Notes under the pieces: generated by a model
Told to the model about the DNA's origin: nothing
Database searches by the model: none
What the model saw: only the letters and a program-made list of their open reading frames with translations
From: a virus
Strand: one strand, 5' to 3'
IMG/VR virus record: IMGVR_UViG_3300047557_001771
Location: 1 to 24,260 of that record
DNA: 24,260 nt
In this document: positions 5,644 to 21,239 of the stretch, in pieces
Layout of the letters: every line of letters starts with the position of its first letter
Numbering within the stretch: position 1 is the stretch's first letter
Position numbers and translations under genes: made by a program

Positions 5644-6516
5644 TCAGAAGTTAAACTTGTCCATAATCTCAGCAACCTGAGTCCTAACTTCCGTCCGAGC
5701 GTCATCATGCTTACGCAGATCATCGACATCAACACTACGCAAGACAGACTCCAGCTTGGCACGAGCAGCCTCCAAGTCAGGGTCGTTGGTCAAGTTCAGA
5801 GCAACGAGAGCCTCACACAACTCCAGCCCACCCTCGACGAGCGAGTTATGGATGCGAGACTTCGACACCTTGCCATTGATCTCCTCTACCTTCAGACGCT
5901 CCATCATGCGCTCCAGATGCGACTTCAAACGATCTCGTGCATCCTTCATCGCTGACTCAATGCGCTCATCAGCTAACTTAGCCAGCTTGGCCTGCAGTTC
6001 TTCCTGCGCTTCGTTACCAACATCTACACGAAAGTCACCAGCTTTGGGCACAGGCATGTAGTTCAGACGGAAGTCAAACTTGCGCGAGATAGCATCAGCC
6101 GTTGGGTATTCGTATCTGTTAAACATGTCACCAAGAGCCATAGCCTGCGCCGTAATCAGCGTGGGGTAAACATCCACAAACTTGTTAACCAACTCTGTGA
6201 ACTCGTCTTGGTATTGACCCATGCGATCATTGAACTTCATAAAACTTTTCGTGGGCAAGAGCCGGATGCCTGTATCAGACCACGGCAGAGTATTCTCATA
6301 AACATACAAACGGATGGCACCAACTAACTGTTGGATAACTTCTAACTCTTGACGGCCAGCCAGCAAGTGTTTGTTGACACGCGCGGCGTCTTTAGCAACG
6401 GCGCCTTTGCCGTAAATAACTTCGTCAGTCACAGTGCGGTCAAGTCTGCGTGCAGTCCACACGGATGCGTTGAACTCAACAAGCAACGAACAGGTATCAA
6501 TGTTGTATCTAGTCAT
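5644..6516 (-). CDS. coiled-coil partner protein of the AAA+/VWA block (DUF3150-like)
   Basis: A 290-aa, mostly helical protein, last in the block that follows the MoxR ATPase and VWA genes. The N-terminal third has mixed helices with W and DR/RV-rich charge clusters. The middle (about 95-150) contains EFTELVNKFVDVYPTL. From about 165 there is a long charged helix (ELQAKLAKLADERIESAMKD and RLKSHLERMMERLKVEE) likely to form a coiled coil. Phage MoxR/VWA loci often carry a third protein of this size and helical make-up, commonly annotated DUF3150; I place this one there from memory, not from a search. The ATG at 6516 has AAAGGAGATAC upstream. No enzymatic motif is visible. It is probably an adaptor or substrate of the ATPase. 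Confidence 0.6.
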   Translation of the reverse strand: MTRYNIDTCSLLVEFNASVWTARRLDRTVTDEVIYGKGAVAKDAARVNKHLLAGRQELEVIQQLVGAIRLYVYENTLPWSDTGIRLLPTKSFMKFNDRMGQYQDEFTELVNKFVDVYPTLITAQAMALGDMFNRYEYPTADAISRKFDFRLNYMPVPKAGDFRVDVGNEAQEELQAKLAKLADERIESAMKDARDRLKSHLERMMERLKVEEINGKVSKSRIHNSLVEGGLELCEALVALNLTNDPDLEAARAKLESVLRSVDVDDLRKHDDARTEVRTQVAEIMDKFNF

Positions 6517-6528
6517 TTTGTATCTCCT

Positions 6529-7176
6529 TTATTTAATGCGAAAAATTTCAAGGTTCTTGCTTTTGTCAAACATAGTGGTGTAAGAACCTTTACCCCAACT
6601 AGAAGCCATGCGAGCAGTTACAGAACTGCGTAGATCTTCAGGTTGAAACTCAGGATTAAATGGAATTACAGCGGTCCCACCCACTTGTAAGTTTTCAATA
6701 AACGGTTTGTAGTAAGCGGCTAACGAACCATACTCACGATCAGTGCGGCGATGCCGTCTTGTTTTGCCGTCATCTATTGACCCTTGCTCCAGCAGTTTGC
6801 CATCCGCAGTGAGAATTTTGTAAGAGCATCCCAAAGCCTGAAGCGTGAGAAGTGCTTGAACTAATGCTTTTTCTTTTACGCCTCCAAATTTCTTGGGGTG
6901 TGGTTTGATTGAAGCGTTGCGAACATATTTGCGCTTGGGCTTCGCTTGCTCTGCTTGCTCTGCTTTTGCGCGTGCTTCTGAGCGTGCTTCTGCTTCTGCA
7001 AATCTCCTATCCATTTCTATTTTCGACTCTTCTATTTCAATGTTTCTGATTAGATCTTGCAGGCTCTGTAGACCTTGAGCGCGCATAATCTTGGGCTTTG
7101 CTGTGTACGTGTTGCTCACAGGAACTTTGTGAACTTCTTCATCGTCCAGCATACTTTGATATTTAAGTTTAGGCAT
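6529..7176 (-). CDS. hypothetical phage protein with coiled coil and C-terminal small domain
   Basis: A 215-aa protein. Residues ~35-80 form a highly charged helix (IEIEESKIEMDRRFAEAEAR) with an Ala/Glu/Lys repeat, likely a coiled coil, followed by a basic linker (PKRKYVRNASIKPHPKK) that could touch nucleic acid. The C-terminal ~70 residues match a small module I have seen in many phage proteins: YKPFIENLQVGGTAVIPF, then LRSSVTARMASSWGKG and a final YTT...LEIFRIK, where a G-x-G-containing strand and an arginine helix precede a last strand. This module also occurs in DNA-binding phage proteins. The start at 7176 has AAAGGAG. Its place between the VWA protein and the coiled-coil partner suggests membership of that block. 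Confidence 0.6.
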   Translation of the reverse strand: MPKLKYQSMLDDEEVHKVPVSNTYTAKPKIMRAQGLQSLQDLIRNIEIEESKIEMDRRFAEAEARSEARAKAEQAEQAKPKRKYVRNASIKPHPKKFGGVKEKALVQALLTLQALGCSYKILTADGKLLEQGSIDDGKTRRHRRTDREYGSLAAYYKPFIENLQVGGTAVIPFNPEFQPEDLRSSVTARMASSWGKGSYTTMFDKSKNLEIFRIK

Positions 7177-7187
7177 TTGATTCTCCT

Positions 7188-8366
7188 TTACACATGAATG
7201 CGCACGACTTTGCCGTGCGTAGGTTTGAAATGATCGTTGTTAACAACGCCCCATAGTTCATTACTGCAGACCGATGTGGGGCATGCATCTAGGTAACCAT
7301 CAGTTAACCAAATGACAGCAGTCGGTCTGTATTCTTTACTGGCAATATAAGTTGCCACACACTGCGGAGAAGTGCCGCCGCCACCAACAGGTTTGAGCAG
7401 GTTGGCAATGCCATCAAACTCTCCACGATTAAATACTTGTTCGCCGCAAACGTGCGTATCCCACCACAGTACGCGCACCTTTTCCGGCTCAGCTTGTTGA
7501 CAGATGTTGGCGATCTCACCAAACACGATTGGATACACGCCCTCCATCGAACCAGACGTATCACAAGCAATTAGCAACTCACCCATTACGATGTCAAAAT
7601 GCGTGGGCATCAAAATGTTATGCACAAGAAACCTACGATTGGGAGGGTTATACCGAGAATACTCGTCACCCGTTATTACCTGCTCAATGAATTCACGCAG
7701 AGCATTACGCCAGTCGGTATCACGCTTGACACCAAGACCAGACAGAGGGTTGTCGCCACTGTTGCTACCCGCCTGCATACGCTTCTGCACCATGTCACCG
7801 TGGTTGAGTGCGTCTTGAATCTGCTGTTCCAGTTCTTGCGGATCGACCTCTTCGGGAGTGCCATAGTGCTCATCAAGAGTCATACTTTCTTCCTGACTCT
7901 GAAGCGGGGGGTTCTTCAGCAAGTCCTGCAACACATCCACGAATGAGCGATTGAAGTACTTAGAATCAAGCAGAGGGACTGGATCGGTTGTGTATTCTAT
8001 AAACTTGTGTTCAGGATCAGTCTGCTCGATCAGCCCATTGACCACATAATCCATCGCCATGTTAGATAACTCTGGGTACTTCTTAACAATATCTTTGTAG
8101 TCAGAGCAATGACGCAGGGCCTTGTGTAGTGACTCATGCAATTGAACGAAGCGCACTTGTTTACGGTTCTGTCTTGCCAAAAATTCACAGCCATAAAACA
8201 CATCGATGCCATTTGTGCCTGCGGTTGGCATACCGTCAATGAGTTGCACATCACCCATTGTTACCAAGCCAGACAGCGTACAAAAGTTGCTGTGATTCAT
8301 GATGTCGATATTGACTGCACGCACACGCTGTTCGAGCGTCATGCTGTCCCATGCGGAGTGTTTCAT
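7188..8366 (-). CDS. metallopeptidase-like/VWA (DUF2201-type) protein
   Basis: A 392-aa protein with two parts. The N-terminal part has QLHESLHKALRH (H77, E78, H81) followed by a MAMDYVVN helix (D106), a zinc-binding pattern of the putative metallopeptidase domain that precedes VWA-like domains in DUF2201 proteins. A low-complexity acidic linker runs about 155-215. The C-terminal VWA domain has the metal-ion-dependent adhesion site: D269-T-S271-G-S273, T332 in GGGGTSPQ and D356 in LTDGY. Genes of this type pair with MoxR AAA+ ATPases to insert metals or remodel protein complexes. Here it directly follows that ATPase (17 bases away). The ATG at 8366 has AAAGGAGG. Whether the HESLH site is catalytic is unknown. 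Confidence 0.85.
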   Translation of the reverse strand: MKHSAWDSMTLEQRVRAVNIDIMNHSNFCTLSGLVTMGDVQLIDGMPTAGTNGIDVFYGCEFLARQNRKQVRFVQLHESLHKALRHCSDYKDIVKKYPELSNMAMDYVVNGLIEQTDPEHKFIEYTTDPVPLLDSKYFNRSFVDVLQDLLKNPPLQSQEESMTLDEHYGTPEEVDPQELEQQIQDALNHGDMVQKRMQAGSNSGDNPLSGLGVKRDTDWRNALREFIEQVITGDEYSRYNPPNRRFLVHNILMPTHFDIVMGELLIACDTSGSMEGVYPIVFGEIANICQQAEPEKVRVLWWDTHVCGEQVFNRGEFDGIANLLKPVGGGGTSPQCVATYIASKEYRPTAVIWLTDGYLDACPTSVCSNELWGVVNNDHFKPTHGKVVRIHV

Positions 8367-8383
8367 GTTGGCCTCCTTTTTAT

Positions 8384-9514
8384 TTATTGGACTCTGTAGT
8401 AGATACGATTGTCGGTAAGCATTTCACCAAACTCATTGACAGAACTGAATGGCCCGATGCGATCAGACTCAGTGATGCGGCGGAGGAACAACGCTTGCAT
8501 CTCAGGTTGCAGACGCTTTACATACTTTGTAAATGCCTCGGCGTGCTCACGCGTTTCGGTGCGAGTGATGAATTGAAACACTTGCACTTGTTGTGCGATT
8601 TTGTTGTTGGGTATTGGTGCAGTATTGGGATCAGAAAGAATAGTGTTGATAGGGGGAACCTGTTGGCCGAAGCGAATGTATGAGTTCAGTATCGAAGCGA
8701 AAGGTTTGCCGACTGTACCTTCCAACGCTTTCTGCAAAGTCTCCGCATCTAGTTTGTCCATCACATCCAAGATGTCAGAGGCCGCGTGCATAGAACGTGG
8801 CGAGGCGTAGGCATCTTGCACGATGCGCGGGTTAAAGATGCTGGGGTTATCTTTGGTCAGGTCTTTGTTCTCGTGCTTGCCGCCTTTCTCGTAGTCCAAG
8901 AACGAATCAAAGACCATCGGATACTCCTGTACACACGCAAGCATGATGGGATTCAAGCGGAAGGGGATGGCAAACTCGTTGAGCCATTCGAGCAACGTAG
9001 CCTTACGCATCTTGACTACAATGAGACGGTTGCGTAGGTGTGCCTGCAGTATGTCGCCTAGTCCCTCCACCGATAGGTTTGTACCAGCAAACCACACAGA
9101 ACCGTCAGGCATACCCATCGCGCCCGCGCGGCGCTCGTAGAGGATCGGGGCGATCATGTTCTTGACGTACTGCGGAACCTTGGCGATTTCATCAAACATA
9201 CCCAGCACAGGGCGTGCTCCGTTTACACCTAGCTGATTGTTCTTTGAAAGGCCAAGGCGGGCGTTGGGTAGCTCGGTTGATATGCCGTTCTCACGATCAA
9301 GGTCAGGCATGAACAGCGAGCCATCGCTGAGTTGTGTTGAATCAATGGGCTTGATCTTGATGTGCCCATCGAAGTCAGGATCTCTGGCTAACGTGTGCCA
9401 CACAGCAGTTTTGCCGATGCCGTTTTCGCCCATGATTAAGACTGTGCGCTTGGCACCAACAGCCTTGATCAAACTGACGACTTGTTTATGGGAAAGAAAG
9501 TCCGATGTATTCAT
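8384..9514 (-). CDS. MoxR-type AAA+ ATPase
   Basis: A 376-aa AAA+ protein with Walker A GENGIGKT (29-36), Walker B VLGMFDE (D108, E109), sensor 1 GTNLS (N146), likely arginine finger in HLRNRL (R161/R163) and sensor 2 SPRSM (R240). The C-terminal ~100 residues form a helical region. The fold belongs to the MoxR/RavA-like clade that works with VWA partners, and here the VWA gene follows directly. It would use ATP to remodel a target complex or load a metal. The ATG at 9514 has AAAGGAGTG, and just upstream is a sigma70-like promoter with an overlapping palindrome (9554-9582). The role in phage infection is unknown. Confidence 0.9.
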   Translation of the reverse strand: MNTSDFLSHKQVVSLIKAVGAKRTVLIMGENGIGKTAVWHTLARDPDFDGHIKIKPIDSTQLSDGSLFMPDLDRENGISTELPNARLGLSKNNQLGVNGARPVLGMFDEIAKVPQYVKNMIAPILYERRAGAMGMPDGSVWFAGTNLSVEGLGDILQAHLRNRLIVVKMRKATLLEWLNEFAIPFRLNPIMLACVQEYPMVFDSFLDYEKGGKHENKDLTKDNPSIFNPRIVQDAYASPRSMHAASDILDVMDKLDAETLQKALEGTVGKPFASILNSYIRFGQQVPPINTILSDPNTAPIPNNKIAQQVQVFQFITRTETREHAEAFTKYVKRLQPEMQALFLRRITESDRIGPFSSVNEFGEMLTDNRIYYRVQ

Positions 9515-9553
9515 GGTTATGCACTCCTTTGTAATTAACGATTTATGTAAAAG

Positions 9554-9582
9554 ATTTTACAGCCCTGTCAAAAATTTGACAA
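9554..9582 (-). promoter_or_regulatory. sigma70-like promoter for the MoxR/VWA block
   Basis: Read on the minus strand: TTGTCA (-35, at 9577-9582), a 17-base spacer and TAAAAT (-10, at 9554-9559), each one base from consensus. Transcription would start near 9547, about 33 bases before the MoxR ATG. A second reading, TTGACA-16-TACATA shifted 11 bases leftward, is weaker at the -10. Confidence 0.65.
9566..9581. promoter_or_regulatory. palindromic operator candidate overlapping the -35
   Basis: TGTCAAA-AA-TTTGACA: two perfect 7-base arms with a 2-base centre, lying on the -35 element and spacer of the promoter above. It matches the 18-bp palindrome at 15898-15915 in sequence and in position relative to a promoter, so a repressor may bind both. 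Confidence 0.6.
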
Positions 9583-9615
9583 GCATTTTTCAGCCATTTT
9601 ACTCCTATAAACGTG

Positions 9616-10047
9616 TTAACCGGAAGGAGACCAGCTAAAAATCTTGTCTGGGTAGCCAATCACACGCTTGATATCCAGCCAATCCACGTTGCGCTCGGTA
9701 GCCTCCCGCTCGTTGTCGTTAGGGTCTTCCCCTATGCGGACAAACTCGATGGCTAGGGATTCGCGGTCAGCCGGATTGTCCACATCGTTGGCGTCTTCAA
9801 CCTGTTCAACGAAGTTAAACAGATGGTTCTTCACCGTATCTAGTTCGCTGTACCACTTGACGTTATCGAACGACCAGAATACGTAGTGCACCTGCCCTTG
9901 CGTTTTCTCCTGTTTGTGTTGGTTCATAAACTCTTTGTCTTCGTCAGGTAGTGCGCTTTGCATAAGTAAATCCAGCACCATCTGACACTCACGTTTCTCG
10001 CCATACATGAGCATGGCAACAGCAGATCGGTAGCCCATATCACTCAT
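9616..10047 (-). CDS. hypothetical conserved phage protein, 143 aa
   Basis: Begins MSDMGYRSAVAMLMYGEK and ends with an acidic stretch plus FVRIGEDPNDNE. The start MGYRS and the F.RIGED signature mark a small phage family that I have seen repeatedly without assigned function. Predicted secondary structure is alpha/beta: a strand (VAMLMYG), helices, a strand with VHYVFWSFDNVKWY and an acidic helix region. No active-site residues are apparent. It precedes the MoxR/VWA block but is separated by the 9515-9615 promoter region, so it may be the last gene of the upstream unit. Confidence 0.65.
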   Translation of the reverse strand: MSDMGYRSAVAMLMYGEKRECQMVLDLLMQSALPDEDKEFMNQHKQEKTQGQVHYVFWSFDNVKWYSELDTVKNHLFNFVEQVEDANDVDNPADRESLAIEFVRIGEDPNDNEREATERNVDWLDIKRVIGYPDKIFSWSPSG

Positions 10048-10135
10048 CCTTTCCTAAGTAGATACCAATACCAATTACCACGAAGATAAATACAACAAAC
10101 CAAACTACATTCTGTGCGGCTTCATGCGCTGGCAT
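10040..10135 (-). CDS. 31-aa single-pass membrane peptide
   Basis: A tiny frame, M-P-A-H-E-A-A-Q-N then a continuous hydrophobic stretch VVWFVVFIFVVIGIGIYLG and a KDE tail. The ATG at 10135 has GGAGGT with 5 bases spacing, among the best ribosome sites in the window. Its start overlaps the end of the NinX-like gene and its stop overlaps the 143-aa gene start, so the spacing is that of a real operon member. The single helix with Gly-x-Gly-x may span the inner membrane. Function unknown; a short phage membrane regulator is possible. Confidence 0.65.
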   Translation of the reverse strand: MPAHEAAQNVVWFVVFIFVVIGIGIYLGKDE

Positions 10136-10442
10136 GATGCACCTCCACTTCATCACCTAACTTACTTGCCACATAACAACGCATGGCGGCGATCAGGGGC
10201 GTTTGACCTGATTCAAATTCAGATGGGTTGATGCTGTTGGATTCCATTGAAGCGTTCCATTGTTGACCTACCCACAACTGAATCTTTTCCCGTTCAATGA
10301 TCGGCCCACCCTGCGCCCAATCGACTGAGGGCATATAAGGTTCGTTGTGCGTTTCGTAATAGTCCTGCTTATCTACACCCTCGCACTTCGCCACCATAAG
10401 ATCCAACTGCACACCGCTTAACTCACTCGTCTTGATCTTCAT
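10122..10442 (-). CDS. NinX-like (DUF2591) protein
   Basis: A 106-aa protein whose motifs are typical of the phage NinX/DUF2591 family: MKIKTSELSGVQLDLMVAKC at the start, DWAQGGPIIERE in the middle and TPLIAAMRCYVASKLGDEV near the end. Family members are widespread in proteobacterial phages and have no firm molecular function; they sit in the nin region of lambdoid phages. The ATG at 10442 has GGAGGT. Its stop overlaps the membrane peptide gene. The family assignment rests on remembered motifs. Confidence 0.8.
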   Translation of the reverse strand: MKIKTSELSGVQLDLMVAKCEGVDKQDYYETHNEPYMPSVDWAQGGPIIEREKIQLWVGQQWNASMESNSINPSEFESGQTPLIAAMRCYVASKLGDEVEVHHASA

Positions 10443-10639
10443 ACCATTACCTCCTTCTTGAAATAACGAACTGCTTTAACGAAGTATTGAAGCGCAGGTT
10501 GGGGGCCAAACTCTTTGTTAACTTTGTCCACCTGCGCCTCTGCCTCAGCCACCGTATCAAATGCATACATCACCCATTCTTTACCCATGCTTGGGTCATA
10601 CTGCATCACCAAATAAACGAAGTTGTTTGTGTCAGTCAT
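10439..10639 (-). CDS. hypothetical protein, 66 aa
   Basis: Opens MTDTNNFVYLVMQYD, then KEWVMYAFDTVAEAEAQVDKV and FGPQPALQYFVKAVRYF: a beta-alpha-beta pattern of a small soluble protein with tryptophan and tyrosine on the strands. No family is recognised. The ATG at 10639 has AAAGGAG, and both ends overlap neighbours by 4 bases, so it is a coupled operon gene. Confidence 0.6.
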   Translation of the reverse strand: MTDTNNFVYLVMQYDPSMGKEWVMYAFDTVAEAEAQVDKVNKEFGPQPALQYFVKAVRYFKKEVMV

Positions 10640-10839
10640 TTCATTTCTCCTTTCAGTTGTTCACGCACATAGGTAATTAAATCCAACGCATCAAGCGCCA
10701 CTTCCAAAGTATCTTCAAAATACTCAGCCTGATACTCGGCAGGATTTTCTAGATAGTTGGCTAGGTCTACTCGAATAGCGTTTACATCTGCTTGCAATCG
10801 GCGTAGCCCATCGTGTATGTTCTTTGGTGTGGTAGTCAT
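10636..10839 (-). CDS. hypothetical coiled-coil protein, 67 aa
   Basis: Almost wholly helical: IHDGLRRLQADVNAIRVDLANYL and EVALDALDLITYVREQLKG, with heptad-like leucines and isoleucines. The ATG at 10839 has AAAGGAG at 7 bases. It may dimerise or act as a small adaptor. It follows the amidotransferase gene on the same strand with a 23-base gap. No function recognised. Confidence 0.6.
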   Translation of the reverse strand: MTTTPKNIHDGLRRLQADVNAIRVDLANYLENPAEYQAEYFEDTLEVALDALDLITYVREQLKGEMK

Positions 10840-10862
10840 TTGCTTCTCCTTTCGTAAGTTAA

Positions 10863-11771
10863 TTATTGAAATGGTGTTGTAACTGATTCACTAGCAAACA
10901 GATCAGAGATCCAATCAACTGCATCTTCTGGTGTATCTTCGACAAGTGCTCGCACTTCATGTGTATCAAGTTCGTACCATTGAATGAGCAGATACTTTGC
11001 TTTCTCTGGATTGAAGCAGACCCAGTTCAACAAGTTGCTTTGACCTTTAAGATAGCATCGGTGCACATCACGAATGATGTCATCGTAATCAAATTTCTCG
11101 TACTCAGCATCCTGCACATTGGCTTTGATATCGCCAACATACGAACTGCCGTATTCGTAATCGTAGCTGTCGTAATACGAACCCCATCTGTTGGTGATGC
11201 CCTTGTGAACAAAGCCATGCTGAGAGGCAGACCATGCGTAGGTATTAGATAGCCACGCACCGAAATGCTCAACGCCAGCATCACGATTGATAACAGCGAT
11301 GCGGCCATCGGCATGACATAGTGCAAACTTGTTGCTAGAACCAATCATCTCACCGAGATACTCTTGGAAGTCTTCGGTGAACAGCAAGTCCATGTTCGAC
11401 TCAGCGATTGGTCTGAGTATGTACTCGATCATGTGCCAAGTGTCTGACATCTCTTTGCGTATGGGATTGCCCGCAGACAGGATGCCGTTGTGCGACAGCC
11501 ATAGATCATCAGTGATGCGATACGGATGGCAGTTGGCTGTGTCGATGTTGCCATGAGTCTTCATGCGGTAATGCAGTATGCACTCACGCCCCTCGGCAAT
11601 GTCACGATACAGCGCAATGGTTTCGTCCACGCTACCAAGAGACTTGGTGACATGGATCTTCTTGCCATCACCAAACATGATGCCGAAGCCATCGGGGTTG
11701 TGTGAGTAGAAGTCACGAAGAACTGCATCAGAGAACGAAGTCTCTGCGGTGTGGTGAATTAGTATGCACAT
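10863..11771 (-). CDS. class II glutamine amidotransferase
   Basis: A 302-aa Ntn-type glutaminase. Cys2 follows the initiator Met directly and would become the N-terminal nucleophile. Other signature pieces: NPDGFG (25-30), HYRMKTHG (67-74, substrate-arginine loop), CHPYRI (81-86), SHNGIL (93-98) and SDT (109-111). These fit the GATase-2/6 family, which releases ammonia from glutamine for a synthase or ligase partner. No synthase domain is fused to it; the only ligase-like gene is the neighbouring amidoligase, so the pair probably makes an amide. After the core (about residues 190-302) is a Tyr/Asp/Ser-rich stretch (YYDSYDYEYG, 199-208), then an acidic helical tail. The ATG at 11771 has AAAGGAG. 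Confidence 0.85.
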   Translation of the reverse strand: MCILIHHTAETSFSDAVLRDFYSHNPDGFGIMFGDGKKIHVTKSLGSVDETIALYRDIAEGRECILHYRMKTHGNIDTANCHPYRITDDLWLSHNGILSAGNPIRKEMSDTWHMIEYILRPIAESNMDLLFTEDFQEYLGEMIGSSNKFALCHADGRIAVINRDAGVEHFGAWLSNTYAWSASQHGFVHKGITNRWGSYYDSYDYEYGSSYVGDIKANVQDAEYEKFDYDDIIRDVHRCYLKGQSNLLNWVCFNPEKAKYLLIQWYELDTHEVRALVEDTPEDAVDWISDLFASESVTTPFQ

Positions 11772-11795
11772 GGTTTACGCTCCTTTTGATTATGG

Positions 11796-13280
11796 TTAAA
11801 GTGTTTCAAGTTTGTTGTCGATGTAATTGCGTAGGATCTTGGTATCGTTAGCAATCACAGGGTTGGCGAGGAACTGCAAGAAAGATTTGGTATCAAGCCT
11901 GAACCCGTAGCCTGACTGATCGCTACAGAAGTTGATCAAGGCATTTGCAAACTGCACCGCAGACAGGATCGACTCGTACTTCAGCGAACCCTTGAACATA
12001 CGAAACTCAACGGTCTTGCGTGACTCGATGTTGAGTGCTTCGTATCTGTTGGTGTCAACACGCAACGCATTGCCTACTCGTTTGCTTGAGTAATACCTGG
12101 CGTAGTCACTACCGTACCTGCGAGCGATGGCCTCGATCAATGCACGATTGTCAGGGTGATTGACAAACGCCACCATCTTTGAGAGTTGCAACTTGGATAG
12201 GCCAGCGCGTGTTACATGGACATGAAGACCGCAAGTGCTGGTGTTGTGCGATGACAGGCCGCGCAACAAGTGAGGTGTCTTGACCCACTCCCAAAACGAT
12301 GCGTGCATATCAAGACCCATCGGTTGCGTGATGATCTCAAAGCCATTGGACAACGAACCATCATTCTCAAAGAAGCAACGCTGTCCCACCTTGCCATTGT
12401 TGAGCGCCTCGTTGAGTATCTGCGCGTGTTCGGTGCGATCATTGCGTACCTCGACCTCAAGCTCAACGCCAAAGAACCGCTCAAAGCGAATGCTCTCATC
12501 TGATAAGTTAAGCGGCTTGGTTACATAGACTGAGTTAGCCTTAGTCCACTCAGATTGAATGGGCATGAAGCTGCCCTTCGATGAATGGTAGTTACCAATG
12601 ATGCGCCCACCATACTCGTGGTGAACATAGCAATCTTCATCATCACTCCACGCAAAGTCTTCATCATCGGTATGAATGGTAACCTCACTACCATCCTGAT
12701 CCATCGCAGTAGCAGAACTCTCGTTGTATACATACGAATCGTAGTAGTCTGAGTATGTGTAGTAATTCTCAATACACGAACGGCAGACAGTAGCGCAACT
12801 GTTGTACGGCTCGGTAGTTTCATCACGCGCCTCCCACTCACCGCAGTCATCGCAAGTCACAAACTCGTTATCAAGAAGATCATTGATATTATCTTTTTCA
12901 TCAAACGCAAGTAAGTAAGAAATGTAACTGCGTATGCCACTTTGATACGAGCGTGCGATGTTGCGCATATGCCCAGTCTGTGAATCGAACAAGGCCAAGG
13001 CATACCGACTCTGCGCTTGGGTACACAGAAGCTTTAACCAAGCGCGCACTTTGTCATGCGATAAAGTAAAGTGGTTGTGCACCTTACCCAACAGGCACAC
13101 GAGCAACGCAGGGCGTTTGTGCGCCATCGTATGCAATGCACGCAACAGATTGACCTGATCCCAACTCAACTCAGGGTTTGGGAAGGTAGCTGATTCGTGC
13201 GATACATTTGTTTCAAGTGCCTTGCCCAGTCTTTGTAGCAACATACTACGAGTATCGTTACCGTAGATTTCAAAGCTCAT
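11796..13280 (-). CDS. amidoligase family protein with zinc-binding module
   Basis: I use the ATG at 13280 (494 aa), which overlaps the upstream TGA and has GGAGGT 5 bases before it. The C-terminal half carries the motifs of the GCS/COOH-NH2 amidoligase superfamily: FGVELEVEV (270-278), ENDGSL (305-310), GFEIITQP (313-320), GLHVHV (351-356), NRYEALN (411-417) and VEFRMFKGS (424-432). The glutamates and arginine would bind ATP/Mg and substrate. The N-terminal region has a four-cysteine treble-clef-like module (C143-x2-C146, C166-x2-C169) followed by a Tyr/Asp/Glu-rich acidic stretch, 171-222. It should activate a carboxylate with ATP and join it to an amine, with ammonia perhaps supplied by the amidotransferase encoded next. 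The substrate is unknown. Confidence 0.85.
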   Translation of the reverse strand: MSFEIYGNDTRSMLLQRLGKALETNVSHESATFPNPELSWDQVNLLRALHTMAHKRPALLVCLLGKVHNHFTLSHDKVRAWLKLLCTQAQSRYALALFDSQTGHMRNIARSYQSGIRSYISYLLAFDEKDNINDLLDNEFVTCDDCGEWEARDETTEPYNSCATVCRSCIENYYTYSDYYDSYVYNESSATAMDQDGSEVTIHTDDEDFAWSDDEDCYVHHEYGGRIIGNYHSSKGSFMPIQSEWTKANSVYVTKPLNLSDESIRFERFFGVELEVEVRNDRTEHAQILNEALNNGKVGQRCFFENDGSLSNGFEIITQPMGLDMHASFWEWVKTPHLLRGLSSHNTSTCGLHVHVTRAGLSKLQLSKMVAFVNHPDNRALIEAIARRYGSDYARYYSSKRVGNALRVDTNRYEALNIESRKTVEFRMFKGSLKYESILSAVQFANALINFCSDQSGYGFRLDTKSFLQFLANPVIANDTKILRNYIDNKLETL

Positions 13281-13489
13281 TTCACACCTCCTTCTTCCTT
13301 TTCGGATGACCATTCGTTATCCCATTCTTCACCACAAGCAAACAACTCCACCTTTGGCAGATCGTTCAGCACTAGCCACAACTTATGGCCTTCGTCCCGC
13401 ATGGCATCAGACCCACCATGCAGTCGTTGCTCGATTCGGCGCAACTTTTCAAAGGCTTCTTTCTCTACGAAGTACCCTTCGTAACTCAT
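13277..13489 (-). CDS. hypothetical protein, 70 aa
   Basis: The start at 13489 is chosen because its ATG overlaps the previous TGA and has AAGGAGGG before it; an in-frame ATG 30 bases earlier lies inside the upstream gene. The product is helical with a charged C terminus: YEGYFVEKEAFEKLRRIEQR, then LWLVLNDLPKVELF and a Glu/Asp-rich end. Its stop overlaps the amidoligase ATG, so the two are translationally coupled. No known family. Confidence 0.6.
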   Translation of the reverse strand: MSYEGYFVEKEAFEKLRRIEQRLHGGSDAMRDEGHKLWLVLNDLPKVELFACGEEWDNEWSSEKEEGGVK

Positions 13490-13683
13490 CTGCTCTTCCC
13501 TCCTTTCAGTAATACGCACTCGCGTTTGAATCTCTGCCAGTCATCACGGCCAGCGTCCACAACAGCCACGACAACGCGATCTTTCTTTGGGACAGATGTC
13601 CCAATCGCTTTGCTCTTTGGTTTAACTTCAGTTTGTAATGCTTGCTTGGCAAGCAACAACACAGCAAGGTTCTCTGCTTTCAT
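13486..13683 (-). CDS. hypothetical protein, 65 aa
   Basis: Start ATG at 13683 with AAGGAG at 7 bases; a longer form would begin in a hairpin leader. It has an N-terminal alpha helix (AENLAVLLLAKQAL), a basic/polar linker (KPKSKAIGTSVPKKD), a strand (VVVAVVDAG) and a basic C-terminal helix. An 18-bp perfect palindrome (13587-13604) lies in the linker codons. Next gene coupled by ATGA. Function unknown. Confidence 0.55.
   Translation of the reverse strand: MKAENLAVLLLAKQALQTEVKPKSKAIGTSVPKKDRVVVAVVDAGRDDWQRFKRECVLLKGGKSR
13587..13604. promoter_or_regulatory. palindrome TTGGGACA-GA-TGTCCCAA (operator family A)
   Basis: Perfect 8-base arms with a 2-base centre, inside the 65-aa coding gene. 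It is the best-formed of three like sites (others at 14971-14994 and 15583-15602). It could be a DNA operator or an RNA hairpin; the sequence does not decide. Confidence 0.55.
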
Positions 13684-13701
13684 TTGCTTCTCCTTCAGGT
13701 T

Positions 13702-13723
13702 GGTGCGGTCAAACCCCCGCACC
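13702..13723 (-). promoter_or_regulatory. RNA hairpin in leader between two genes
   Basis: On the minus strand GGTGCGG ... CCGCACC gives a 7-base perfect stem with an 8-base loop, located between the stop of the zinc-finger gene (13740) and the ribosome site of the 65-aa gene. No U-run follows, so it is not an intrinsic terminator; a processing or protection element is possible. Confidence 0.35.
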
Positions 13724-13739
13724 TTGGGTTACAGATTCT

Positions 13740-14429
13740 CTACGGCCTCGGGATGTGATACAGGAATGGGGCCAGCCTTTGCGTATGCTCAGCGGGCACA
13801 GCTTTGAACAGATCCCACAGCTCAGAATGAAACCGCTCGGCAATCAACTCATGCCATGCAGCGGGTAGTTTCGCCCCCGTCTTGGCTTTCAGTTTGAGAA
13901 GTTGCTTCACGCTATCCAGCATGACCATGTACCTCGCGCAGAACAGAGTCCCTGCTTGATCCTGTTTGTTTGTTCTACGGAAGTGAATGAGTTTGTTTGA
14001 GATGCGCTTTTCAACATCTCGCATGGATTCAAGTAATGGCACGAGTTCGGGTGCGGCGTTCTTCAAACGAGTGCGGAGTGTTTTTTCTGTGCGGTTTACT
14101 GCGCCTCGTATGCGGCGGGCGTTTACGCGTTCTTCGATCTTGAGCGGGTTCAGACCTTGGGTGACCAAGCGTTTGCGGTAAACCTCGGGGGATATATCAA
14201 CCGACTTGCGGCGCCTTGCGTTGTGGCAGTCGTTACAATGCTTGCCTTCGTATGTCAGGCGCTTTTGTGAGGTTGGGTTCTTTGTCCACGCTCTGGACTG
14301 CAGGATTGTGGCGCGCCGAGTGAAATCAGAAAGTGGACATTCGCGTTTGCACGCTGGGCACCGCTTGTATCCTTGCTTTGGCTTGGGTGCATCGTTGTTT
14401 AGAGCATCTAAATATTTCATGAATTTCAT
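13740..14429 (-). CDS. zinc-finger protein, 229 aa, unknown function
   Basis: The start is probably the ATG at 14429 (weak AGGA upstream); an ATG 9 bases later is also possible, and longer frames have no ribosome site. The N-terminal region has two Cys-x2-Cys pairs, C24/C27 (RCPACKREC) and C65/C68 (HCNDCHNARRRK), which resemble the zinc knuckles of phage HNH/endonuclease VII-like proteins, but no H-N-H triad is visible. A basic helical region follows (RGAVNRTEKTLRTRLKN), then a helical C-terminal part. It could bind DNA or RNA. It is encoded upstream of the amidoligase set, after a 350-base region with no gene. Confidence 0.6.
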   Translation of the reverse strand: MKFMKYLDALNNDAPKPKQGYKRCPACKRECPLSDFTRRATILQSRAWTKNPTSQKRLTYEGKHCNDCHNARRRKSVDISPEVYRKRLVTQGLNPLKIEERVNARRIRGAVNRTEKTLRTRLKNAAPELVPLLESMRDVEKRISNKLIHFRRTNKQDQAGTLFCARYMVMLDSVKQLLKLKAKTGAKLPAAWHELIAERFHSELWDLFKAVPAEHTQRLAPFLYHIPRP

Positions 14430-14718
14430 AGGTTGTGTCCTGTGTATCAAAAAATGTCCTAGCGATTGGACGCGCTGTAACCCTTGTGGAATAAGGCTTG
14501 AGGTCATGTGTAGCATACTAGTCCAGCAAAATAGAAAATACTAAACAAACAAAATAAAATTTTCTTTTTTTCTGAAAAAGTGTGTCCATATGTACACCTC
14601 TCTATAAATAAATACTTAATTTATAAAAAGATATATATAGTATGACGCAAAGTGGACGAAGCCAATACGGGCGCGGGTTTGAGCGCGTCCAAACGCTGGG
14701 ACAAAACGAGATAAGTGT

Positions 14719-14730
14719 GGACAAATGTCC
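14719..14730. promoter_or_regulatory. short palindrome GGACA-AA-TGTCC
   Basis: Five-base arms, 2-base centre, the same core as the family A palindromes but lacking the outer TTG/CAA. It lies beside the hairpin at 14733-14751. Confidence 0.4.
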
Positions 14731-14732
14731 GA

Positions 14733-14751
14733 GGGGGTAAAAAACACCCCC
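14733..14751. other. stem-loop GGGGGT-N7-ACCCCC
   Basis: Six-base perfect arms around an A-rich (plus strand) or T-rich (minus strand) loop. It lies 31 bases downstream of the 54-aa gene's stop in the transcription direction. No T-run follows the stem on either strand, so it is not a standard terminator. Confidence 0.35.
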
Positions 14752-14781
14752 TTCCTATAAACATACTAATGGGAAGCACAG

Positions 14782-14946
14782 TTAGTCTTGCGGTGCTGTG
14801 CGTTCGAGCCATGTGGTGAAAGCGTAGAGTTTGCGTTCATCGCGGCGTTTGCGTTCGGTCTTGAATCGCTGAGAAACCTTGCGCTCCCGCTTCTTGGCTT
14901 TAGTTGTGTCAAACAAACTAACAACATCTTTGTATGTCTTGCCCAT
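14782..14946 (-). CDS. small basic protein, 54 aa
   Basis: Starts at ATG 14946 with TTTAGGAGAAC upstream and ends with TAA at 14782-14784. The product is highly basic: TTKAKKRERKVSQRFKTERK and RRDERKLYAFTTWLERTAPQ. It has many Arg/Lys residues and no cysteine or obvious fold, suggesting nucleic-acid binding by charge. The palindrome TTTGGGAC...GTCCCAAA lies 25-48 bases before its start. It is too short for a standard length cut-off, but the ribosome site and the leader support it. Function unknown; an early host-takeover peptide is a guess. Confidence 0.6.
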   Translation of the reverse strand: MGKTYKDVVSLFDTTKAKKRERKVSQRFKTERKRRDERKLYAFTTWLERTAPQD

Positions 14947-14970
14947 GATGTTCTCCTAAATATGTTGGTG

Positions 14971-14994
14971 AGTTTGGGACAGGCGTCCCAAACT
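14971..14994. promoter_or_regulatory. palindrome AGTTTGGGAC-AGGC-GTCCCAAACT (family A)
   Basis: Ten-base perfect arms around AGGC. It lies between the stop of the 136-aa gene (14998) and the start of the 54-aa gene (14946). As RNA it would be a 10-base stem with a 4-base loop. No T-run follows, so it is not a normal terminator. Confidence 0.6.
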
Positions 14995-14997
14995 TGT

Positions 14998-15408
14998 TTA
15001 CTCGATACCAGCAAGTTTGCGAAACTTCGCACGCTCCGCATTACTAAGTTTGTCGTATGCCTGCACCAACTTATCAACGGCAGACAACACCTCAGCCTTG
15101 TTGCGTGCTCCGCCTCGCTTATCCTTGACACCGATGAATGGTGCAATGACGCGGTTCCATTGTTTCGTAGCCGCCTCATGCCTGTTCGCGCTCGTGATGT
15201 CCTTAGCATCTTTGTAGAAACGATAAGCCCCTGTCTCTAACATCTCAGCATGAGCGTGATAGCACTCCGAATGTTCCTCGGCTAAGTCTGCAACGATGCT
15301 CGCAGGCAACTTACCCCGCACGAGATGTTTCTGTATCTCGTTACGCATATCGTATCCAGCGCGCAGGAAGTTGCGGTAAGCCAAACGAATGGATGATTTT
15401 GCTTTCAT
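14998..15408 (-). CDS. hypothetical protein, 136 aa
   Basis: The ATG at 15408 has AAGGAGAATC upstream. The product is mostly helical with a basic N terminus (MKAKSSIRLAYRNFLRAGYD), a His/Glu-rich middle (EEHSECYHAHAEMLETGAY) and a charged C-terminal helix (KLVQAYDKLSNAERAKFRKL). The histidine/cysteine cluster might bind a metal, though no standard pattern appears. It lies near the front of the early operon, between the two very small genes. I do not recognise the family. Confidence 0.65.
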   Translation of the reverse strand: MKAKSSIRLAYRNFLRAGYDMRNEIQKHLVRGKLPASIVADLAEEHSECYHAHAEMLETGAYRFYKDAKDITSANRHEAATKQWNRVIAPFIGVKDKRGGARNKAEVLSAVDKLVQAYDKLSNAERAKFRKLAGIE

Positions 15409-15442
15409 GTTTGATTCTCCTTAGTTTGTTTGTGATAAGTAA

Positions 15443-15562
15443 TTACTTCGAGATGATGCGATACGCAGGTTGCTTGCGATACAGCAGGAAATAGATCCTT
15501 TGGTAAGACATCACTTCTTCAAGGCTTGAAAAATACAAATCATTGCAGATGGCTTTGAACAT
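15443..15562 (-). CDS. 39-aa protein, first early gene
   Basis: ATG at 15562 with a strong AAGGAGAAG site; stop TAA at 15443-15445. The product is MFKAICNDLYFSSLEEVMSY followed by a basic, aromatic stretch (QRIYFLLYRKQPAYRIISK). It is the first open frame downstream of the control region and follows the leader terminator and a palindrome (15583-15602). Its size is typical of phage early peptides, though this is context only. No homology recognised. Confidence 0.55.
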   Translation of the reverse strand: MFKAICNDLYFSSLEEVMSYQRIYFLLYRKQPAYRIISK

Positions 15563-15582
15563 GATTACTTCTCCTTAGTTTG

Positions 15583-15602
15583 TTTGAGACAGATGTCCCA
15601 AA
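15583..15602. promoter_or_regulatory. palindrome TTTGAGACA-GA-TGTCCCAAA (family A)
   Basis: Nine-base arms, one base off perfect, with the GA centre. On the minus-strand RNA that base becomes a G-U pair, so an RNA hairpin of nine pairs can form. It lies 21 bases before the 39-aa gene's ATG and just after the minus-strand terminator's T-run. Confidence 0.55.
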
Positions 15603-15604
15603 TG

Positions 15605-15628
15605 AAAAAGCCGAGCAAGCGGCTCGGC
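15605..15628 (-). terminator. intrinsic terminator in the early leader
   Basis: Minus strand: GCCGAGC-CGCTT-GCTCGGC followed by TTTTT. The stem is 7 G+C-rich pairs (15610-15628), the T-run is 15605-15609. It lies downstream of both minus promoters and upstream of the first early gene, so it may act as an attenuator. A second stem (GGTTGGCA...TGCCAGCC, one mismatch, 15637-15656) precedes it. Confidence 0.7.
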
Positions 15629-15665
15629 ATCGCAACGGCTGGCAACCCTGCCAACCGATACATCT

Positions 15666-15674
15666 ATTATAGCA
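15666..15674 (-). promoter_or_regulatory. extended -10 promoter (TGCTATAAT) on the minus strand
   Basis: TG-C-TATAAT is a perfect extended -10. The 17-base-upstream hexamer (GGCATA) is poor, which an extended -10 can tolerate. Transcription would start near 15659 and run directly into the two hairpins and the terminator. Confidence 0.5.
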
Positions 15675-15875
15675 TTAACATTAGTTGCTATGCCTTTTGC
15701 CAACCTTGTGACCCCACCATACCCCGACCCCCCAAACAATGTAGCAATGTGGCGACGGCGCAAGATCACTATTCCTCAGCCACACAGCAACTTTTGTAAA
15801 AGGCCAGTAAAACTTACCCCACCCCCTTCGCCGCGCATAAATAAAGCAAAGGAGGACGCAAAAGTGCTAAAAATT

Positions 15876-15904
15876 TCTATAAAAATTAAAGTAGATTTTG
15901 TCAA
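15876..15904 (-). promoter_or_regulatory. main early promoter (TTGACA-17-TATAGA)
   Basis: Minus strand: TTGACA (15899-15904), 17-base spacer, TATAGA (15876-15881). The -35 is exact and the -10 matches 4 of 6. The start would be near 15869, giving a ~300-base leader before the 39-aa gene. The -35 is inside the palindrome 15898-15915. Confidence 0.65.
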
Positions 15905-15915
15905 ACTTTTGACAA
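15898..15915. promoter_or_regulatory. operator TTGTCAAA-CT-TTTGACAA (family B)
   Basis: Perfect 8-base arms with a 2-base centre, overlapping the -35 of the early promoter. The same pattern lies on the MoxR/VWA promoter (9566-9581). A protein bound here would block RNA polymerase. Confidence 0.65.
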
Positions 15916-15931
15916 TGCTGTTGGCGTAGGC

Positions 15932-15966
15932 AAAAAAATCCCCCATTGGGGAGGCCGCTGGGGGAT
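15932..15966 (-). terminator. intrinsic terminator upstream of the early promoter
   Basis: Minus strand: ATCCCCC, 15-base loop, GGGGGAT, then a T-run (7 T counting the last stem base). A shorter inner CCCC-ATT-GGGG stem is also possible. It would stop minus-strand transcripts arriving from the right, insulating the early promoter from antisense reads of the late arm. Confidence 0.6.
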
Positions 15967-16087
15967 CAAGGCTGAAAAAGCCAGCATATAAAGGAGATGC
16001 AAAAGTCCTCCCCTTGCAGGAAAGACAAAAGCAAGTATACACTCCGCACAACTGAGCGCAAGCTCTGCTTACGGGGACAGACCCGCG

Positions 16088-16717
16088 ATGTTAGAACATT
16101 TACATGAAATAGATTTTGAGCCGGAGGTGCTGGATGCACCAGACGAAGGCTTTGTGCCTTTGAAAAAAGTATCCGCGCCGAATCTATTACAAGCACAGGT
16201 AAATACTGCCGACTGGTTAAAAGAACTTGGCGCAGAAGATGATGCGGCTGTGGAGCAGGAGGCACAAACTGCCGCAGCCCGTAATGCGTTTGCTGCTGTA
16301 ACAACAGGAGCGCCAGATCCAAAGACAGCGTTATTGAATCTGAAGGTGCCCGAGGCCGTTCGCAAGACGGTGGCAATGCTGACTGCGTATGACTGGGAGT
16401 TTGTTTCGCAAGCCAAAGAGATACGCGGCAAAGCTGTGGCACAGCTTGTGGATGAGATGGATCACCCTGATGCCCGCATTAGGCTAAAAGCAATTGAGCT
16501 GATTGGTAAAGTAAACGGTATCGACATGTTTACTGAGCGGGTAACGGTCAAGAAAGAAGAGTTGGCCGACGAAGAACTGGATAAACGGATTAAAGAAAAG
16601 CTTGCGCAGCTACAGAACACGGTGGATGCAGAAGCCAAAGCCCGCGAAGAACGTAATAAAGACGCCGAAGATGTGGAAGTAGCTGAGCCAGAGAGCAAAG
16701 ATGCAGCGGCTGAGTGA
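16088..16717 (+). CDS. terminase small subunit
   Basis: The first gene of the late arm, directly before and overlapping the large terminase gene (17 bases). The 209-aa product has an acidic, disordered N terminus, a helical core (VPEAVRKTVAMLTAYDWEFV, about 88-107, then KAVAQLVDEM, RIRLKAIELI) and a long charged C-terminal helix (ELDKRIKEKLAQLQN, with an acidic tail). This layout fits phage small terminases that bind DNA ends as oligomers and recruit the large subunit. The start has only a weak GGGG site, but no better in-frame start exists. Assignment is partly from position. Confidence 0.75.
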   Translation: MLEHLHEIDFEPEVLDAPDEGFVPLKKVSAPNLLQAQVNTADWLKELGAEDDAAVEQEAQTAAARNAFAAVTTGAPDPKTALLNLKVPEAVRKTVAMLTAYDWEFVSQAKEIRGKAVAQLVDEMDHPDARIRLKAIELIGKVNGIDMFTERVTVKKEELADEELDKRIKEKLAQLQNTVDAEAKAREERNKDAEDVEVAEPESKDAAAE

Positions 16718-18218
16718 CGCAGAGATAGCTGCGCTCTTAAAAACAATGACTCCGCAGGAGAAGCTGGAGTTTTTGGAGGAGCTTGAAGAGCAAGAACGGC
16801 GGATGAAGCTTAAAAAAGCGCAGACTTCAATGATTTCGTTTGCGCATGAGATCTACCCAGGCTTCAAAGAAGGCGCGCATCACAGGAAACTGGCGCAAAT
16901 ATTTAAAGATGTGGCGGACGGTAAGAAGAAAAGGGTGATTATCAACATCGCCCCCCGTATGGGTAAGTCGGAATTTAGTTCTTATATGTTTCCGGCGTGG
17001 TTTTTGGGGCAGTACCCGGACAAAAAGATTATTATGGCAACGCACACTGCCGGTCTTTCCGAAGATTTTGGTAGGCGAGTGCGAAATTTGATTGATTCAG
17101 ATGAATATAAAGCAGTTTTTCCAGGTACTGTGGTCGCAGATGATCAAAAAGCTGCGGGAAAATGGTCTACCTCTGCTGGTGGTCAGTACTATGCTGTTGG
17201 CGTTGGTGGTGCTCTTGCTGGCCGTGGCGCCGATTTATTCGTTATTGACGACCCACACTCAGAACAGGACATTAAAGCTAATAGCCGAGCTACATTTGAC
17301 AACGCTTGGTCATGGTTTCAAACAGGTCCGCTCCAACGATTGATGCCGGGCGGTGCGATTCTGGTCATTATGACCAGATGGTCGCTGGTTGACCTTACAG
17401 GACGGCTGCTTCAGTACCAAATTCGTAACCCAGACGCAGATCCGTGGGAAATAGTAGAGTTGCCAGCCATACTGCACGAGAACACGGACAACGAGAAGTC
17501 ATTATGGCCCGAGCAGTGGCCTTTGGACCAGCTAAAACAGAAACGCGCAGCCATTGATGCTCGGTATTGGAACGCCCAGTACATGCAGCAGCCGACATTG
17601 GACTCGGCGGCGTTTATTAAAAGAACACACTGGCGCTTGTGGGACAAAGATGACCCACCGCGTTGCGAGTTTGTCATTCAGAGCTGGGATACGGCGCATG
17701 AAACCAAGACTTCATCAGACTATACGGCCTGCACCACATGGGGCGTTTGGTATAACGAGGAAGAAGGCGACAGGCCAAGCATTATTTTGTTAGATGCTTT
17801 TAAAGATCGGATGGAGTTTCCAGAACTGAAGGAAGTGGCGTTAAAGCAGTACAAGGAGTGGAAGCCAGATTCGTTTCTGGTGGAGAAAAAAGCGGCTGGT
17901 GCACCGCTTGTGCAGGAGCTGCGACGCATGGGCATACCGGTGGACGAGTTTACCCCCACCAGAGGTAACGACAAGATTGCTCGGGTTAATGCGATTAGTG
18001 ATCTGTTTGCTTCAGGCACGGTGTGGGCACCAGATAGACGGTGGGCTAAGGATGTGATTGAAGAGGTCGTGGCGTTTCCTGTTGGGGAGCATGACGACTA
18101 TGTAGATACGATGACGCAGGCGCTGTTGCGGTTTAGGAATGGGGGGTTTATTACGCTGCCCTCTGATGAACCAGACGAACCCGTGTTCTGGCGAAGCCGT
18201 AAGGCTGCTTACTATTAA
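16701..18218 (+). CDS. terL: terminase large subunit (packaging ATPase/nuclease)
   Basis: A 505-aa packaging motor. N-terminal ATPase: Walker A-like APRMGKS (84-90), Walker B LFVIDDPHSE (D183, D184) and coupling TRW (225-227). C-terminal RNase H-like nuclease: QSWDTAHE (D330), FLVEKKAAG (E395) and HDDYVDT (D466/D469), all metal-binding acidic residues. The length and layout fit the T4 gp17-like large subunits (TIGR01630-type nuclease part). It cuts concatemeric DNA and pumps it through the portal. The N-terminal ~45 residues form a charged helix likely to contact the small subunit. Confidence 0.95.
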   Translation: MQRLSDAEIAALLKTMTPQEKLEFLEELEEQERRMKLKKAQTSMISFAHEIYPGFKEGAHHRKLAQIFKDVADGKKKRVIINIAPRMGKSEFSSYMFPAWFLGQYPDKKIIMATHTAGLSEDFGRRVRNLIDSDEYKAVFPGTVVADDQKAAGKWSTSAGGQYYAVGVGGALAGRGADLFVIDDPHSEQDIKANSRATFDNAWSWFQTGPLQRLMPGGAILVIMTRWSLVDLTGRLLQYQIRNPDADPWEIVELPAILHENTDNEKSLWPEQWPLDQLKQKRAAIDARYWNAQYMQQPTLDSAAFIKRTHWRLWDKDDPPRCEFVIQSWDTAHETKTSSDYTACTTWGVWYNEEEGDRPSIILLDAFKDRMEFPELKEVALKQYKEWKPDSFLVEKKAAGAPLVQELRRMGIPVDEFTPTRGNDKIARVNAISDLFASGTVWAPDRRWAKDVIEEVVAFPVGEHDDYVDTMTQALLRFRNGGFITLPSDEPDEPVFWRSRKAAYY

Positions 18219-18227
18219 GGAAAAATC

Positions 18228-20660: not shown

Positions 20661-20666
20661 ATCTAA

Positions 20667-20861
20667 GTGATAAATACCTTCGTAGAAGTTCTACGCAAAA
20701 AAATCCGCGAGGATATGAACAACTACGCCGACGATTTGGCAGGCGGCGTATGCAAAAGTTTTGAGGAGTACCAAAAGCTCTGTGGCGTCATTCAAGGGTT
20801 GGCGATGGCAGAGGCCCATTTATTATCCCTTGCTAAGAAAGTAGAGGAATCTGATGAGTGA
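20667..20861 (+). CDS. small hypothetical head-operon protein, 64 aa
   Basis: GTG start with AAGGAG 10 bases earlier; stop overlaps the GroES-like gene. Helical: VEVLRKKIREDMNNYADDLA, then YQKLCGVIQGLAMAEAHLLS. This short helix-rich layout is common for phage proteins between portal and scaffold, but no function is established. Confidence 0.55.
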   Translation: MINTFVEVLRKKIREDMNNYADDLAGGVCKSFEEYQKLCGVIQGLAMAEAHLLSLAKKVEESDE

Positions 20862-21225
20862 TACGGCAGAAGTAGAAGAACAACAGAAAGCCACACAGCT
20901 ACCAGAACCATGCGGTTGGAAAATTTTGTGCGCTGTCCCAGAAGTAGAAGACCGGTTCAGTGGTACAGATTTATTAAAGCCGGAATCAATATCTAGAGTT
21001 GAAGAACACAGCACTACGGTGTTGTTTGTTTTAAAAGTAGGGCCGGAGGCATACAAAGACTCAGCCAAGTTCCCCAACGGGCCTTGGTGTAAAGCAGGTG
21101 ACTTTGTGTTAGTAAGGGCTTACTCAGGTACCCGGTTCAAAATTCATGGTCGGGAGTTTCGGCTGTTGAATGATGATCAGGTTGAAGCGGTAGTAGAAGA
21201 TCCGCGTGGCTATACACGCGCTTAA
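20854..21225 (+). CDS. GroES-like co-chaperonin
   Basis: A 123-aa protein with the Cpn10 barrel pattern: EPCGWKILCAVPE (18-30), a hydrophilic stretch where the mobile loop would be (about 31-52), FVLKVGPEAYKD (58-69), GPWCKAGDFVLVRAYSGT (76-93), FKIHGREFRLLNDDQVEAVV (95-114). The vGP..Y.D and GD.V motifs and the final D.v.av are typical. The length is longer than E. coli GroES (97 aa). T4 gp31 shows that a phage GroES can replace the host cofactor to fold the capsid protein; this gene's place among portal, scaffold and capsid supports that role. The mobile-loop hydrophobic tripeptide is not clear. Confidence 0.8.
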   Translation: MSDTAEVEEQQKATQLPEPCGWKILCAVPEVEDRFSGTDLLKPESISRVEEHSTTVLFVLKVGPEAYKDSAKFPNGPWCKAGDFVLVRAYSGTRFKIHGREFRLLNDDQVEAVVEDPRGYTRA

Positions 21226-21239
21226 CAGGAGAGTTATAA

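Follow-up and report, generated by a model that had tools for sequence, protein, structure and literature searches.

An intact amidoligase gene and the class II glutamine amidotransferase gene that directly follows it form a cassette-like unit in this DNA of a bacterial virus, and in relatives their linkage is close to obligate. The DNA analysed (the window, whose position numbers are used throughout) is a 24,260-base record from a virus collection. Our preferred reading, held tentatively, is that the pair constitutes a mobile two-component ligase cassette using glutamine for ammonia-dependent amidation, with a host-cell molecule as the probable target.

Both enzyme identities proposed in the first-pass annotation held up. 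The window amidoligase matched Pfam family PF12224 (Amidoligase_2; E=1.8e-5, 25.2 bits, curated cut-off 22) and the amidotransferase PF13230 (GATase_4; E=1.3e-6, 27.9 bits, curated cut-off 23), and the predicted folds agree. PF12224 was matched at E<=0.01 by 25/25 members of the amidoligase alignment A2, and the PHROGs matches for the pair were phrog_16683 (E=1e-32), phrog_2443 'amidoligase enzyme' (3.9e-12) and phrog_25883 (5.5e-8). Neither protein matched a PADLOC defence protein model, and Rfam and tRNA scans were empty. The amidoligase reading frame (13313–11796) begins at ATG 13313, which would give 505 aa; the start is likely the ATG at 13280, since a Shine-Dalgarno site precedes it and similarity to the nearest relative, L002, begins at about that point. 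The Shine-Dalgarno-supported starts at 13280 and 11771 mean that the gene coordinates assigned earlier were right. On the minus strand of the window, 24 bases separate the two genes.

Table 1. Features of the amidoligase–amidotransferase pair in the window
Feature	Position	Strand	Details and basis
Amidoligase_2 gene	11796..13280	-	494 aa from ATG 13280; ORF, PF12224, phrog_16683, GS/GCS-type fold match, Shine-Dalgarno site
Class II (Ntn) glutamine amidotransferase gene	10863..11771	-	302 aa; ORF, PF13230, GlmS/PurF/EgtC fold match
Shine-Dalgarno AAGGAGG, amidoligase	13287..13293	-	Sequence; 6 nt 5' of ATG 13280
Shine-Dalgarno AAGGAG, amidotransferase	11780..11785	-	Sequence; 8 nt 5' of ATG 11771
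N-terminal helical domain, amidoligase	12912..13259	-	Residues 19-134 of 505-aa ORF; AlphaFold2, pLDDT roughly 67-92
CxxC...CxxC element, amidoligase	12774..12854	-	C154, C157, C177, C180; kept in 50, 53, 53, 53 of 55 relatives
Catalytic GS/GCS-fold ligase domain (predicted)	11799..12491	-	Residues 275-505; invariant catalytic residues and Foldseek
Ntn glutaminase domain	11217..11771	-	Residues 1-185 with Cys2, R69, N95, G96, D110; alignment and model
C-terminal five-helix domain, amidotransferase	10893..11087	-	Residues 229-293; AlphaFold2, most pLDDT about 90
Block 88.8% identical to L002, ending at the pair's own ends	10824..13294		blastn, window against L002; dS lower than in flanking genes

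The amidoligase contains the motifs expected of its family (GVELEVEV, ENDGSL, GLHVHV and VEFR), as had been noted, and its active site is intact. Across an alignment of 55 amidoligases with a mean column identity of 21%, the GxHxH and ExR motifs and the acidic metal/ATP residues were kept in every member, the invariant positions (55/55) being G282, E284, E286, D318, S320, E326, H364, H366, R399, N428, E436 and R438 (numbered from ATG 13313; numbers counted from ATG 13280 are lower by 11). The earlier description of the enzyme as 'stand-alone' is inexact, as its catalytic domain is accompanied by an N-terminal helical domain and a four-cysteine element that, judged by its sequence, is zinc-ribbon-like. 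AlphaFold2, run with family alignments, gave models with a mean pLDDT of 87 for the amidoligase and also for the amidotransferase. The predicted amidoligase fold is the GS/GCS fold: when searched with Foldseek against solved structures, the model matched glutamine synthetase, γ-glutamylmethylamide synthetase (GmaS), YbdK and the Pup enzymes Dop and PafA. Scores against glutamine synthetase, GmaS, YbdK and Dop ranged from E 3e-6 to 8e-4 (probability 1.00), with TM-scores of 0.24-0.38 that are low because of the extra domains of the amidoligase. At the level of sequence, neither the amidoligase nor its alignment had a usable match among solved structures; only the fold search yielded any.

The amidotransferase begins MC, with a catalytic-type cysteine right after the initiator methionine, again as first noted. 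In 46/46 relatives C2, H67, R69, T72, H82, H94, N95 and G96 were invariant, and D110 was kept in 43/46. This set had been picked for a cysteine near the start; in an unselected set the N-terminal cysteine was present in 21/22 proteins, the exception being the divergent StenR_269 protein. Hence neither the ATP/Mg glutamates nor Cys2, whose loss in close relatives would have spoken against the first-pass annotation, has been lost. In the model, a disordered linker joins the Ntn domain to the five-helix tail. The best fold matches were the GlmS glutaminase domain (1.2e-6), PurF and EgtC (E about 1e-4). GlmS and PurF are ammonia-transferring amidotransferases and EgtC is a γ-glutamyl hydrolase, an option for the amidotransferase that was absent from the first-pass annotation.

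The two genes are linked in relatives, as had been anticipated. The amidotransferase lay directly 3' of the amidoligase, on the same strand, in 185/191 ligase loci from viruses and bacteria, a total that should not be read as so many independent genomes, since the loci partly overlap (L001 is the window itself, and several contigs entered twice). Of the linked loci, 108 are from viruses or phages, with a median gap of 29 nt, and 77 from bacteria, with one of 42 nt; in 27/27 viral loci retrieved with the amidotransferase alone the ligase was directly upstream. Six amidoligase loci had no downstream partner. Three of these end with the contig (L054, L113 and L190); in L092 (about 9080-10300) the match of the amidotransferase frame breaks off after 38 residues, apparently owing to an inserted element, and the species has intact copies elsewhere. 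The others are two distant relatives with no adjacent amidotransferase, in Clostridioides phage L015, where the next gene is RlaP-like, and Microcoleus phage L019. We found no ORF in which the two proteins were fused. Over 33 non-redundant viral loci, the protein distances of ligase and amidotransferase were correlated with r=0.92, compared with 0.71 and 0.67 for their correlations with terminase. For the four-cysteine branch, the two genes should be considered as one unit.

Purifying selection acts on both genes. Relative to L002, dN/dS was 0.19 for the amidoligase and 0.13 for the amidotransferase, and relative to L021 it was 0.19 and 0.21, respectively. The identity block shared with L002 stops at the ends of the pair; the region 5' of it (13.3–14.46 kb) is mostly without a DNA match in L002, and the small ORF downstream (10636–10839) has no counterpart there. 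Values of dS against L002 were 0.32 and 0.36 for the pair, and 0.71, 1.04 and 1.33 for MoxR, VWA and TerL. This single comparison of the window with L002, in its identity block and low dS, is in keeping with a recent exchange in which the pair moved as one unit. The pair is accessory, since phages whose terminases are closest to that of the window (about 50%; HTVC027P, HTVC023P and others) are missing from the phage records bearing either gene. A further contig, L010, is 99.86% identical to the window over 8.3 kb (positions 13009-21313), with one end within the amidoligase gene; it and the window probably represent the same phage population.

The same pair occurs in bacterial conjugative-type elements, which the first-pass annotation had not mentioned. 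The best 80 of 554 bacterial genome matches were mostly from Ruminococcus. A DUF960 gene lies immediately 5' of the ligase in 61 bacterial loci, and recombinases, a relaxase and TraG-like coupling proteins recur near the Ruminococcus pair, so that these loci look like integrative or conjugative elements. Several copies of the DUF960–amidoligase–amidotransferase unit are found per Ruminococcus genome (L047-L126), and one R. flavefaciens genome holds 7 amidoligases. DUF960, being small and directly upstream, was considered as a possible peptide substrate of the Ruminococcus ligases; its match to a general Pfam family and its absence from viral loci speak against its being a universal one. Among plasmids, a search returned no more than four matches, all of them distant (three from Clostridioides, one from Mycobacterium).

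If our preferred reading is correct, the ligase, with ATP and Mg2+, would activate a substrate carboxylate as an acyl phosphate, and the Ntn glutaminase would hydrolyse glutamine and hand the ammonia to the ligase, yielding a primary amide. Substrate binding, or holding the two proteins together, would be the probable role of the CxxC...CxxC element and the helical domain in the ligase and of the helical tail in the amidotransferase. The target would probably be a molecule of the host cell (a cell-wall peptide, protein or small metabolite) altered during infection, and not part of the virion; modification of a host molecule by the pair is plausible. In favour of this reading we counted the families and folds, the invariant residues, the 185/191 linkage, the distance correlation of 0.92, the dN/dS of 0.13-0.21, the pair-bounded block and the match to GlmS and PurF. 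Against it we counted the lack of a fusion, the good fold match to EgtC, the two distant relatives without an adjoining partner and the occurrence, in two Ruminococcus genomes, of a canonical amidoligase with γ-glutamyl cyclotransferase (GGCT), which is unable to supply ammonia.

This last arrangement bears on a possible, though somewhat less probable, alternative, namely EgtA/EgtC-like γ-glutamyl chemistry, in which the ligase would link an amine to a glutamyl or like group, and its Ntn partner would later hydrolyse the γ-glutamyl amide, donating no ammonia. In the two R. flavefaciens genomes examined, a canonical short Amidoligase_2 (331 aa) is followed by GGCT and not by an amidotransferase (L195:3945-5981; L196:3917-5647, where GGCT was identified from the near-identity of its sequence). 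The γ-glutamyl amide bond is the site of action of GGCT and of EgtC-like Ntn enzymes alike, and the amidotransferase may therefore be a γ-glutamyl hydrolase instead of an ammonia donor. Such chemistry would also agree with EgtC being one of the top fold matches to the partner, with the nearness of the ligase fold to GmaS and YbdK, with the amidoligase and GGCT arrangement listed for Tn6164 (PMC3485107) and with the classing of the GGCT and amidotransferase of RIO-1-like cassettes as degrading enzymes (PMC5498523). However, GlmS and PurF match the partner fold equally well or better, and GGCT was found in 0/28 related viral records. The tightness of the linkage and the co-divergence do not discriminate between the two chemistries, since they are expected of an ammonia-sharing complex too. 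What the data pose is a clear choice between ammonia transfer and γ-glutamyl hydrolysis, for which both phages and bacterial elements offer pairs that are intact and diverse.

In the window, the pair belongs to a minus-strand block with an exonuclease, DNA polymerase A, DUF3150, VWA, MoxR and an endonuclease VII-like gene, and the plus-strand block holds terminase, portal, GroES-like and head genes. That the pair is expressed early, as the first-pass annotation had it, is a fair guess made only from this layout, in which it is co-oriented with replication genes and opposed to the terminase, portal and head genes; a promoter scan found fewer sigma-70-like sites than in shuffled sequence. Just downstream of the pair lie genes for a MoxR-type ATPase, VWA (DUF2201) and DUF3150 (5644-9514, minus strand), in an order kept in the related phages L002, L021 and L045, and the GroES-like co-chaperonin gene (20854-21225, plus strand) is placed between portal and head genes. 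Elsewhere, a DUF932 protein is encoded directly 5' of the pair in 21 viral loci (e.g. L155:20-1033). In one viral group a RimK/R2K-like ATP-grasp ligase follows the pair (L025:9897-10667, also L029, L039, L042 and L046; in the L042 record the gene is in two pieces), so that 5/28 related viral records have an ATP-grasp homologue and the window has none.

It is unlikely that the pair acts on the cell wall, altering peptidoglycan stem peptides against superinfection or lysis by others. As this idea concerns the choice of substrate and fits either chemistry, our confidence in it partly overlaps with that in the readings above. It has been put forward for phiEco32 and RIO-1-like phages (as related in PMC10580990 and PMC5498523), and bacteria amidate stem peptides via MurT/GatD (PMC3267633). 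Yet no wall-related gene was recognised beside the pair, GGCT and ATP-grasp genes occur in 0/28 and only 5/28 viral records, and phages and Ruminococcus elements, which share the pair, need not have one wall substrate. We regard as similarly doubtful the idea that the four-cysteine amidoligase and its amidotransferase form a self-contained module, common to phages and Ruminococcus conjugative-type elements, for amide modification, of a kind so far undescribed, of a conserved protein or metabolite of the host, which might blunt host defence or competing elements. Amidation of a hypermodified DNA base or nucleotide is highly improbable: the pair does lie in the replication-side block with DNA polymerase A, an exonuclease and an endonuclease VII-like gene, but hydroxymethylase, base kinase and 7-deazaguanine genes were not recognised among the scanned window proteins or the identified recurrent neighbours, an absence that weighs little because the contig is incomplete.

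The prediction of amidoligases in phages goes back to 2009 (Iyer et al., cited in PMC10580990). Pairs of amidoligase and amidotransferase have also been published for phages, and the window pair belongs to the same kind. The earlier statement that the literature connects such pairs with cell-wall change or small products is borne out by PMC10580990 and PMC5498523: as the former relates, Iyer et al. (2009) proposed a cell-wall change against superinfection for phiEco32, and secondary metabolites have been proposed for mycobacteriophage Marvin. The literature searched yielded no tested substrate of a phage amidoligase. In the open-access papers searched, we found neither the near-obligate unit of the four-cysteine branch, nor its sharing with DUF960-bearing Ruminococcus elements, nor its cassette-like exchange, and such absence is weak evidence.

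Among published systems, OM43 phages and over 30 marine genomes carry an amidoligase with a GATase (PMC10580990). The Methylophilales phages MEP401 and MEP402 and other OM43 phages have the same two genes in the same order, strand and adjacency, with replication genes following; they differ from the window pair in host group and in sequence (identity about 27% for the ligase and 33% for the amidotransferase). The larger cassettes of RIO-1-like, phiEco32 and LUZ24-like phages (PMC5498523, PMC3890496) also combine a PF12224 amidoligase and a class II amidotransferase in a replication-side block, but also contain a second ligase, GGCT and ATP-grasp, and none of these three was recognised in the 24-kb window; given the GGCT and ATP-grasp counts in the viral records, the full published cassette is absent here. 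Tn6164, L195 and L196, which are Firmicutes mobile elements, share the ligase family and the mobile setting, whereas their ligase is short, lacks the four-cysteine element and is partnered by GGCT. EgtA/EgtC and MurT/GatD are functional analogues in their logic of ligase plus partner, and EgtC resembles the window amidotransferase in fold. MurT has a Mur-ligase fold, GatD is a class I enzyme and EgtA belongs to another GCS family. The window pair, with its predicted GS/GCS-fold ligase and class II amidotransferase, does not match the MurT/GatD type, and no other Egt genes were recognised among the window proteins scanned. In the Ruminococcus mobile elements (L051-L126), a four-cysteine ligase is likewise followed by an amidotransferase, but there the ligase is shorter, without the long helical N-terminus, and DUF960 stands upstream in the 61 loci described above.
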